This document shows positions 3,196 through 7,569 of a stretch of DNA of 64,000 nucleotides, one piece after another. The notes under the pieces are model-generated. The model saw only the letters and a program-made list of their open reading frames with translations. It ran no database searches and had not been told where the DNA came from. Position 1 is the stretch's first letter. Each line of letters begins with the position of its first letter. The position numbers and the translations under genes were made by a program. The stretch comes from a virus. The stretch spans positions 1-64,000 of IMG/VR virus record IMGVR_UViG_3300027734_000056; one strand, given 5' to 3'.

Positions 3196-3615
3196 ATGGC
3201 TAAAAATACTTCAATGGCTCGTATTCCTGTTAAGTGGGTCAGAGATAAAGCAAAAGCTGCTTATGAAAAAGCTGACACCTGCTGGATATGTGGCACCACA
3301 CAGGACCTAGAACTACATCACTTTCACTCAGTTACCCTGCTGCTTAATAGTTGGGCCGTGAAAAAAGGTTATGATATCAGCACTGATAGTGGCATTTTAG
3401 CAGTACGTGATGAATTTATTGCCGAACACCACGATGAACTATACAACCAAGTGCGTACACTTTGCAATAAACACCATGTAAAACTGCATGCAACTTTTGG
3501 CAAAGCGCCAGCTGCTGGCAGCGAAGCTCGTCAGGCACGTTGGTGTGATCGTCAGCAAGCTAAAGCTCAGGGTCTAGAAACCACCACAAGCTCATTTTTT
3601 AGCGAATTTACATAA
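3196..3615 (+). CDS. HNH endonuclease (139 aa)
   Basis: A beta-beta-alpha metal nuclease. The zinc knuckle pair is CWIC (residues about 29-32) and LCNKHH near residue 95. The catalytic part is LELHHFH at about 40-46, and the closing KHHVKLH supplies the remaining histidine. HNH proteins encoded next to terminase genes are known to aid terminase cutting in several siphoviruses, and the position between terL and portal fits that role. The alternative is a free-standing homing endonuclease. The N-terminus is basic (KWVRDKAKAA). The ATG at 3196 lacks a clear Shine-Dalgarno sequence (an A-rich leader is present), unlike the portal gene 9 bases downstream. Confidence 0.85.
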   Translation: MAKNTSMARIPVKWVRDKAKAAYEKADTCWICGTTQDLELHHFHSVTLLLNSWAVKKGYDISTDSGILAVRDEFIAEHHDELYNQVRTLCNKHHVKLHATFGKAPAAGSEARQARWCDRQQAKAQGLETTTSSFFSEFT

Positions 3616-4812: not shown

Positions 4813-4827
4813 AGCATACAAAGGAGT

Positions 4828-6837
4828 ATGATGAATAAAAACAAAGTATTATATGTAAATAGTACTTTTGCTAAACAAATAACCCCAGAGTCAACAGACG
4901 GTATACAAAGTGTTTATATTGAAGGCTACGCAAGTACCACAGATATAGACAGAATGAACGATGTTATACCTAGTGCAGTTTGGGAAAAAGGCATATCCAA
5001 CTACTTAAAAAATCCTATTATATTATCGCAACATGACCATGATGATCCTATTGGCAGAATGGTTGATTATAGAATAGATTCAAAAGGTTTGTGGGTTAAA
5101 GCCAGAATCTCAGCCGCAGCTGATGAGGTTTATGGTTTAGTAAAAGATGGTGTAGTAACCGCATTTAGTGTTGGATTCAGGGTCATAGACGCTGCATACG
5201 ATGCTGCAACAGAGCTGTTTGTAATCAAGGAACTTGAACTAGTAGAAATATCAGTTGTATCAATTCCTGCCAACCAGAATACTCTATTTAGTTTGTCTAA
5301 AGCATTTTCAGATGCTGATGAGTACAAAAAGTTTAAGTCCCAATTTATAACGGCAGATGACTCAGCTAAAAAGCTCGAAAATTTGCCTCCTGTAAATTTA
5401 AAATCATATAAGGAAGTCGAAATGACAGAAGATCAAATCAAACAAATGGTAGCAGACGCTGCCGCTGCTGCAGCCCTAGAAACAACTAAGGCTCTAGAAG
5501 CAAAACAAAAAGCTGAAGCTGATGCAGCTGAACTAGATGCTCGTTTAAAAGCCATCGAAATTCAAACTGCTGAATCAGGTGCAGAACGTCTAATGGCTGA
5601 AATCGAAAAGCGTTTCGCTGATCAAGCAGCCTCAACAAAAAGCATGCTAGATGGCCTACAAGGTGCTATCTCTGAAAAAGCTGCTGAAATTGAAGCTATC
5701 CAAAAGTCAAAAATGACTTTTGTTGACGGTAAACAAGGTGGACCTTCTTACAAAGAAAAAGAAAATGCAGTTTTACTTGCTAACATTTCTCGTAAAGGTT
5801 TAGCAGATACAAAATACGCACAAGATCTAATCCAAAAATACGGTCAACACTTGCCAAGCGCTACTTGGGAACTAGAAGTTAGCCTAAACATGGAAGAAGA
5901 AGTTCGTCGTAAGCTGATTGTTGCTCCACTATTCCGTACAATTGACATGAAAACTAATGTCATGACAATTCCTTTGAATCCAGATGCAGGTTTGGCTTCT
6001 TGGGTACAAAACAGTGACTTTGGTGGTACAAATTCAGTTGGTAGTACTACAGCTACTACAACTGGTACAGTTGGTGCTGGTACTCCACACGCATTAAAAG
6101 AAATTACTCTAAATGCATACAAAGTAGCTACAAGAGAGTACTTATTCTACGAAGAAGAAGAAGATTCTTTAATCGTTTTACTACCTTTCATTCGTGATGC
6201 TATGGTTCGTCGTATTGCTCGCGCACTTGATCGTGCATATATACAAGGTGTAGGCAGCGGTAGTGATCCAGTTAAAGGTCTAACTCGTTACGCCAGTGTC
6301 AACACAGTTACAAGTACTTCAGTAGTAACTGCAGCGGTTGGTACAGCGGTTACAGTTGCTAAACTACGTGCTATGCGCGCTGGTTTAGGTGTTCTAGGTC
6401 TAGATCCAGCAGAAGTTACATTCGTTGTTAACTCAGCTGTTTACTACGATCTATTGGAAGATACAGTATTCCAAACAATGAACCAAGTTGGTCCACAAGC
6501 TACATTGTTAACTGGTCAAATTGGTCAGATCGGTAACTCACCAGTTCTAGTAAGTGGTGAACTACCAGAAAAACCAACTGCAGGTAAAGCAGGTACAACT
6601 GCTGGTACTGGATCTTCAGCGACTACTACATGGGAGTATACAAAAGATGATGTTGTTGGTGCTTTAGCTATTTATACACCAAACTTTGTTGTCGGCAATC
6701 AACGTGGTCTACGTATGGATACACAAGAGTTGGTAGAAACACAACGTCGTGTGATGGTTGCTAGTATGCGTAGTGGCTTCCAGCAAATGTCTAGTGCCTA
6801 CGGCCCAGGTGTTGTAAGCTTACGTTACGCAAGCTAA
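4828..6837 (+). CDS. Fused prohead protease and major capsid protein (669 aa)
   Basis: One uninterrupted frame joins two proteins usually encoded separately. Residues about 15-165 are an HK97 (U35-type) prohead serine protease: the GYASTTDIDRMNDVI opening, the catalytic His in SQHDHDDPIGR (about residue 70), the catalytic Ser in VTAFSVGFRV (about 115), and SVVSIPANQNT. Residues about 199-300 are a charged, Ala/Glu/Lys-rich helical delta or scaffold segment. Residues about 310-669 are an HK97-fold capsid subunit (TWELEVSLNMEEEVRRKLIV; VRRIARALDRAYIQG). Two tandem ATGs (4828, 4831) follow AAGGAG. An in-frame internal start with its own ribosome site lies at 5422, where arginine codon choice also changes. 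Cleavage between the delta domain and shell is expected but not shown. Confidence 0.92.
   Translation: MMNKNKVLYVNSTFAKQITPESTDGIQSVYIEGYASTTDIDRMNDVIPSAVWEKGISNYLKNPIILSQHDHDDPIGRMVDYRIDSKGLWVKARISAAADEVYGLVKDGVVTAFSVGFRVIDAAYDAATELFVIKELELVEISVVSIPANQNTLFSLSKAFSDADEYKKFKSQFITADDSAKKLENLPPVNLKSYKEVEMTEDQIKQMVADAAAAAALETTKALEAKQKAEADAAELDARLKAIEIQTAESGAERLMAEIEKRFADQAASTKSMLDGLQGAISEKAAEIEAIQKSKMTFVDGKQGGPSYKEKENAVLLANISRKGLADTKYAQDLIQKYGQHLPSATWELEVSLNMEEEVRRKLIVAPLFRTIDMKTNVMTIPLNPDAGLASWVQNSDFGGTNSVGSTTATTTGTVGAGTPHALKEITLNAYKVATREYLFYEEEEDSLIVLLPFIRDAMVRRIARALDRAYIQGVGSGSDPVKGLTRYASVNTVTSTSVVTAAVGTAVTVAKLRAMRAGLGVLGLDPAEVTFVVNSAVYYDLLEDTVFQTMNQVGPQATLLTGQIGQIGNSPVLVSGELPEKPTAGKAGTTAGTGSSATTTWEYTKDDVVGALAIYTPNFVVGNQRGLRMDTQELVETQRRVMVASMRSGFQQMSSAYGPGVVSLRYAS
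5411..5424 (+). promoter_or_regulatory. In-frame internal ribosome-binding site and start within the protease-capsid fusion
   Basis: AGGAAG at 5411-5416 is followed after 5 bases by ATG at 5422-5424, codon 199 of the fusion and in the same frame. Initiation here would give a 471-residue delta-plus-capsid protein without the protease. All five arginines upstream use AGA or AGG; nearly all downstream use CGT or CGC. Confidence 0.65.
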
Positions 6838-6843
6838 TCAAGT

Positions 6844-6899
6844 TGGGGGCTTTTTGCCCCCATCTTTTGTATGTGCGGCGTGCTGCACATACAAAAGAT
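6844..6899 (+). terminator. Tandem hairpins after the capsid gene, attenuator or RNA-processing element
   Basis: The first hairpin is TGGGGGC (6844-6850), loop TTTTT, GCCCCCA (6856-6862). The second has a perfect 15-bp stem: 6862-6876 pairs with 6885-6899 around the 8-base loop GGCGTGCT. Neither is followed by a clean T run, so full termination is unlikely. Stabilising the abundant capsid mRNA or reducing read-through to the connector genes is more plausible. Confidence 0.6.
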
Positions 6900-6912
6900 T
6901 ACAGGAGTATTT

Positions 6913-7569
6913 ATGGGATTACCATTAGTTACAAGAGCTGAGTATAAAGCTTATGCTGGTATCACAAGTACTACTAGTGATACCAAATTAGACAGTTTGA
7001 TTCTACAAACCAGCGAACTGGTAAAGTCAATATGCCGCAGAACTTTTGTAGACTGGGTTGACGACACCAAAGTAGAAATTCAAGAAGGTGGCGGTCCACT
7101 AATCATTCTACAAGAGTCGCCAGTTATTAATATCAACAGTGTGGAGCTTAGCACAGACTACGGCAAAACCTACACCACACTTGTAGAATACACAAATTAC
7201 GTGCTAGATTTAAAAACAGGTGCACTACGTCCCATACAAATGACGCAGTATCCACTGGAAGTTTACGGCAGTGCGCCTTATGGTACTATTAATTATGGTT
7301 TTACACCTTACGGCACTACCATAAACCCAATATTTCCAAAAGCCATAAACGGCTATCGTATCAGTTACACTGCAGGTTACGAAGAACTACCTGCAGACTT
7401 AAAGTTAGCAGTATTTGATTTAGTCACTTACTATCAACGCAATGACGGTGCTGTGCATTCTAATAGCGCACCAACTGGCAGTGGTATACAAATTCAGTAT
7501 ATAACAGACACCAGTTTACCTGCACATATTCGCCGCGTGTTAGATTTGTATACTACGAGTTATGATTAA
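6913..7569 (+). CDS. Head-tail connector (adaptor) protein, gp6/gp8-like (218 aa)
   Basis: The start at 6913 (MGLPLVTRAEYKAY) follows AGGAG; an upstream in-frame start would lie inside the hairpin and is rejected. The N-terminal helices (TRAEYKAYAGITSTTSDTKL, then LILQTSELVKSICRRTFVDW) are the usual opening of connectors that dock under the portal. A beta-rich middle (SPVININSVELS) and a C-terminal segment containing YTAGYEELPADLKLAVFDLV complete the family pattern. It is the first gene after the capsid, as in HK97-like phages. It starts a run of four head-tail joining genes. Confidence 0.8.
   Translation: MGLPLVTRAEYKAYAGITSTTSDTKLDSLILQTSELVKSICRRTFVDWVDDTKVEIQEGGGPLIILQESPVININSVELSTDYGKTYTTLVEYTNYVLDLKTGALRPIQMTQYPLEVYGSAPYGTINYGFTPYGTTINPIFPKAINGYRISYTAGYEELPADLKLAVFDLVTYYQRNDGAVHSNSAPTGSGIQIQYITDTSLPAHIRRVLDLYTTSYD

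Follow-up and report, generated by a model that had tools for sequence, protein, structure and literature searches.

A conserved internal start within the protease-capsid fusion gene of an uncultured freshwater phage suggests a protease-free capsid product

Nested in-frame genes for a protease and a scaffold are already known from viral head assembly, as are fusions of a protease to the major capsid protein (MCP). In phage lambda, the protease gene C is said to carry an in-frame nested scaffold gene, Nu3 (reportedly described by Shaw and Murialdo in 1980). From this one open reading frame (ORF), an internal start yields a short, protease-free protein next to the long, protease-bearing one, and the co-assembly of both delivers few proteases. 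The herpesvirus genes UL26/UL26.5 are a nested in-frame pair as well (protease plus scaffold versus scaffold alone), in which the protease-bearing form makes up about 10% of the scaffold (PMC12474303). In HK97, about 60 proteases are found per 415 capsid subunits, and in D3 about 90 per 540 (PMC12749128). Fusions of the protease to the MCP pose a question of stoichiometry, since a shell takes hundreds of capsid subunits and only tens of proteases. Such fusions occur in PAJU2, in the Arthrobacter phages of AM, AU and AN, in Rhodococcus RRH1, in the thaumarchaeal NCAV2-Pro1 and in Gifsy-2, all of them separate by sequence from the one treated here. An internal start is not mentioned in the available portions of the papers describing these fusions (PMC5513430, PMC11953736, PMC6563490, PMC8306868), and no report of a conserved nested MCP start inside a protease-capsid fusion was found in the open-access literature.

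The DNA analyzed here (the window) is a stretch of 64,000 nucleotides from an uncultured freshwater phage (IMG/VR record IMGVR_UViG_3300027734_000056). Its fused gene and the associated signals are the following:

4820-4826, plus strand: Shine-Dalgarno (SD) sequence AAAGGAG of the long-product start (duplex -8.2 for ATG 4831, -2.8 for ATG 4828)
4828-6837, plus strand: fused ORF of prohead protease, delta domain and MCP, 669 aa, starting at ATG 4828 or 4831
4906-5292, plus strand: S78 prohead protease domain, residues 27-155 (PF04586 E-value 5.5e-18, TIGR01543 above cut-off)
5347-5421, plus strand: variable linker, residues 174-198, predicted to be disordered (pLDDT below 50 at residues 174-200) and of low conservation
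5410-5416, plus strand: internal SD AAGGAAG, with the AAGGA core 7 nt from ATG 5422
5422-5424, plus strand: internal start codon ATG, in frame, codon 199 counted from 4828
5422-6837, plus strand: predicted capsid-only nested product of 471 aa, delta (scaffold) domain plus HK97-fold MCP

The fused ORF is unbroken, and likewise intact in all close relatives. Its N-terminal part belongs to the HK97-family prohead proteases (S78), with 66.1 bits for PF04586 (cut-off 21) and 83 bits for TIGR01543 (cut-off 59). The remainder belongs to the HK97-fold MCPs with a delta domain, the C-terminal half scoring above the TIGR01554 cut-off. The NCBIfam model for prohead protease/MCP fusions (NF045541), for which at least 525 bits across the whole protein are required, reached 58.1 bits over residues 65-289 only. 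In the AlphaFold model of the fused protein (mean pLDDT 70), residues 174-200 are of low confidence, the delta-domain helices span residues 201-294 and the HK97 fold begins at about residue 344. Residue 199 lies at the border of the linker and the delta helices. The best solved-structure matches of the model in the PDB are the capsids of DT57C and T5.

The gene very probably has two starts, yielding a small number of protease-capsid chains and a large number of capsid chains, with the long form co-assembling and its protease acting in the prohead. Ribosomes starting at 4828/4831 would produce the long protein (prohead protease, delta domain and capsid domain), and those starting at 5422 a full capsid precursor (delta domain and HK97 fold) without the protease. 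This short form would be the bulk building block of the shell. The long form would co-assemble via the shared delta and capsid parts, so that a limited number of protease domains would end up inside the prohead. There the proteases would cut away the delta domains, possibly near residue 333, as the alignment to the mature T5 chain suggests. From the sequence we infer translation starting at 5422, an excess of the short form, co-assembly of the long form and protease action after assembly. Judged by sequence conservation, the locus shares a trait of the nested in-frame genes of the lambda C/Nu3 type, a conserved internal SD-start predicted to give a protease-free assembly protein. The two differ in that the short product in the window would be the MCP itself, whereas that of lambda is a separate scaffold; moreover, the window protease is of the S78 type and that of lambda C is ClpP-like. 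The herpesvirus pair resembles the window in its nested in-frame layout, but belongs to a eukaryotic virus and its nested product is a scaffold, not a capsid protein. A conserved nested start would answer the stoichiometry question with a directly testable prediction and would connect fusions of protease and capsid with the nested protease/scaffold pairs of lambda and herpesviruses. It would also imply that the most abundant protein is missing from the genome annotations of many of these phages, and it suggests why fusion and fission of protease and capsid genes can recur.

The internal SD forms a duplex of -6.3 kcal/mol. The window genes checked contain 123 other internal ATGs in frame; one of these has an SD duplex at least as strong as -6.0 kcal/mol. 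Around the internal start the RNA is comparatively open, with more structure in about 96% of the windows along the gene. When the codons were shuffled synonymously, an SD of this kind was obtained with p = 0.20, so it is unsurprising in a single sequence given its amino acids, and it is the relatives that make the case strong. The layout proposed in the first-pass annotation (ATG 5422 as codon 199, preceded by AGGAAG and opening a 471-residue capsid-only product) is exact in the sequence. Its description of the protease as weakly made finds no backing in the upstream start: at -8.2 the SD of ATG 4831 surpasses that of the internal start (-6.3), though it is closely spaced, which makes the ratio of long to short product unpredictable from sequence. 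The long start is preceded by an SD in the relatives too.

A scan of IMG/VR proteins yielded 56 loci, including 43 external ones that cover the junction (24 clusters at 95% identity, 7 at 70%). All 43 are fused and contain an ATG at the aligned codon with AAGGAA upstream; the ATG is invariant in the 45 rows of the alignment. In a second scan, for which search patterns within the capsid part and none touching the linker were used, the ATG and an upstream AAGGA were present in 79/79 loci (about 15 of the 79 lie on contigs shared with the first set). In a diverse alignment of nine sequences, Met199 is the sole invariant residue between F170 and A207 (numbering of relative L036, in which Met199 is M194).

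A further scan, led by T5-like capsid proteins, returned 43 two-gene loci and 33 more fused loci, the latter with an MCP identity of about 31-45%. A strong junction SD-ATG was found in each of these 33 divergent fused loci, with the SD strings AAGGAA, GAGGAA, CAGGAG, AAGGAG and GGGAGGAA. A set of 55 fused representatives contains 70 strong SD-ATGs, 55 of which fall within codons 175-225. Two of the loci counted as two-gene, L190 and L207, contain a stop inside the capsid part. L207 was considered as a split member among fused relatives and rejected, as a single in-frame TAG (2977-2979) in the delta domain accounts for its split look; this may be a real nonsense codon, recoding or possibly a sequencing error.

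Codon choice changes at the same place. The arginine codons before codon 199 are AGA (four) and AGG (one), and those after it are CGT (19), CGC (two) and AGA (one), i.e., 5/5 AGR against 21/22 CGY (Fisher p = 7e-5). When all synonymous codons were scanned by likelihood, the single best break fell after codon 195, within four codons of ATG 5422, with a gain of 59.1 (100 permutations: mean 27, maximum 38). The protease half uses codons like the other genes of the window genome. Of the genes examined, the capsid half shows the strongest codon bias; it stands apart from the rest of the window genes in this set with ATA as 5% of Ile, GGT as 82% of Gly and TTC as 70% of Phe. A break between codons 155 and 266 recurs in 19/19 full-length representatives tested, and after the start almost all arginines are CGY; in L031 it is marginally above its null. 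As indirect evidence, the bias fits a far greater production of the capsid part; the break alone could reflect selection other than for extra initiation. The first-pass annotation had read the arginine switch as the mark of an abundant capsid and had called for a codon-usage scan along the gene. The switch was borne out, the scan exceeded the permutation maximum, and the biased capsid half speaks for abundance. The conservation, together with the recurrence of the break in relatives, speaks strongly for its proposed internal start of a capsid-only product.

The nearest cultured relatives are the T5-like phages (Demerecviridae), which possess a head protease and a capsid gene (pb8) and share with the window the gene order terminase, nuclease, portal, protease, MCP and head completion. 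In the cultured T5-like phages, protease and MCP are two ORFs with a stop between them, whereas the window has one, as do the relatives on its side of the tree. The T5-like MCP gene begins 2-17 nt downstream of the protease stop, where the alignment places Met199, and hence the 471-aa product would be a complete capsid precursor (the capsid proteins of T5 and DT57C have 458 aa). In the split T5-like phages, the protease and capsid genes mostly show the same difference in codon use.

In a protease plus capsid tree of 71 rows, the fused and split rows are parted by one branch with 100/100 support. The root was left unplaced by a protease tree with distant outgroups; an ancestral fusion may have been split in the T5-like phages, or two genes may have been fused in the uncultured clade. 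Whichever the direction of change, the fusion is an old one. At the window SD, TAAGGA (5409-5414) is out of frame, and in some T5-like phages (e.g., L058) the TAA of TAAGGA is the in-frame stop of the protease. A small upstream frame change producing fusion or fission would fit; the T is lacking in many relatives. The T5-like phages PSTCR5 (L240:2495-4507) and PL1 (L063:1450-3492) come close to a fusion: nothing but a stop codon and 6-12 nt lies between their protease and capsid ORFs, which share one reading frame. One alignment made PSTCR5 appear fused, but its annotation gives two in-frame ORFs, and it was rejected as a cultured fused relative. No cultured fused relative of the uncultured clade was present among the phage-collection matches listed, and a scan of genome contigs for a host genome gave distant relatives only, the two best long matches being split. 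The window also contains an HNH-like endonuclease gene between terminase and portal (3196-3615); a "nicking endonuclease" is annotated at the same place in the T5-like Vibrio phage 234P1 (L058).

The same layout can be observed in other protease-capsid fusions. The PAJU2-like prophages form, by sequence, a fusion family independent of the window clade. The junction start layout is present in 69/69 fused members, with the start codon exactly at the aligned junction in 67 and 1-2 codons away in two; the SD is mostly AGGAGGG and weaker in some divergent members. This family also contains ten split members, and a quick tree (with some long branches) gives at least four fused/split changes. A junction SD-ATG is likewise found in Arthrobacter Sourignavong (AN), Rhodococcus RRH1 and Gifsy-2, each represented by a single sequence or close copies; the fused gene of Gifsy-2 carries a ClpP-type protease. 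A more distant relative of Sourignavong, L330, has no clear junction SD-ATG. On their sequences, Gifsy-2, Arthrobacter AN and RRH1 appear to fit a dual-start layout more weakly than the PAJU2-like genes. Among solved capsid structures of the PAJU2-like or AN type, none useful for showing the N-terminus was found. On balance, we favor the broader reading that dual-start genes are the general rule among the protease-MCP fusions of tailed phages, with an invariant capsid start around which the stop is gained or lost. With at least four changes in the PAJU2 family and one in the T5-allied group, "fused" and "split" would be two forms of one expression scheme. If so, many current annotations miss the main product.

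Three other accounts of the conserved junction, and one of how the short product arises, have to be weighed. The 669-aa fusion could be the sole product, with the protease cleaving itself out in the linker and protease and capsid made one to one. The fusion is indeed an intact ORF with a good SD of its own, and a polyprotein has been proposed for PAJU2 (as cited in the available portion of PMC8306868). Such a polyprotein is nevertheless very improbable here, as it leaves unexplained why divergent lineages invariably keep an ATG and SD, why codon use breaks inside a single translated unit and why the site agrees with the start of a separate MCP gene. A slightly smaller chance still is given to conservation at the protein level, where Lys-Glu-x-x-Met would be needed in the protein (e.g., as a cleavage site or helix start) and ATG and AAGGA would be conserved as a consequence. 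Once the residues are taken into account, the SD strength of a gene is no more than mildly unexpected, and each single SD only moderately unlikely. An SD of its own strength would be expected by chance in 16 of 56 genes given their amino acids and was observed in 56, and p = 0.006 is obtained for 13 lineages combined (which are not fully independent). Against this account, the residues encoded at the SD vary by lineage (KE, EE, QEK, REE, KEK) and an SD string is kept; such differing strings and residues argue for the conservation of a ribosome-binding signal, not merely of one peptide. In addition, the codons of Lys-Glu at the SD are AAG GAA in 24/24 representatives, against 20/106 Lys-Glu pairs elsewhere in the same genes, and the separate PAJU2-like fusions show the same layout with unrelated residues.

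The codon break might also be a trace left when two genes of different history were recently fused, as the first-pass annotation had offered in the alternative. The change at the junction is sharp and related phages have two genes; still, we consider this extremely improbable. The fusion is common to the whole divergent uncultured clade, with capsid identities down to about 31-35% and the one supported fused/split change, and this clade-wide age rules out calling it recent. Furthermore, the split phages mostly show the same codon difference between their two genes, and the protease half shares the codon use of the rest of the genome. An old fusion is compatible with the dual-start explanation. 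Finally, the short product could derive from a separate internal transcript instead of internal initiation on the long mRNA. The same SD-ATG would be usable, and herpesvirus UL26.5 works as a nested gene. We regard this as unlikely: six sigma-70-like sites were found in the region against 11 expected, although that consensus may not be the host's. This alternative alters only how the same short product arises.

Directly 3' of the capsid gene (6844-6900), two tandem hairpins are predicted, together -38.4 kcal/mol (z -5.9). The first has a terminator-like GGGGGC/GCCCCC stem and a T-rich tail. The second has a long stem (CTTTTGTATGTGC...GCACATACAAAAG), the 5' arm of which includes the T-rich tail of the first. 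A hairpin with a T tract also follows the capsid gene in T5-like phages, and a second arm lies beyond it in many close fused relatives. The tandem hairpins are possibly a post-capsid attenuator or a protector of the mRNA 3' end. At 6871-6915, the ORF listed for the head completion protein from ATG 6871 begins inside the tandem hairpins; the ATG near 6913, with AGGAG before it, is the likelier start of this protein.
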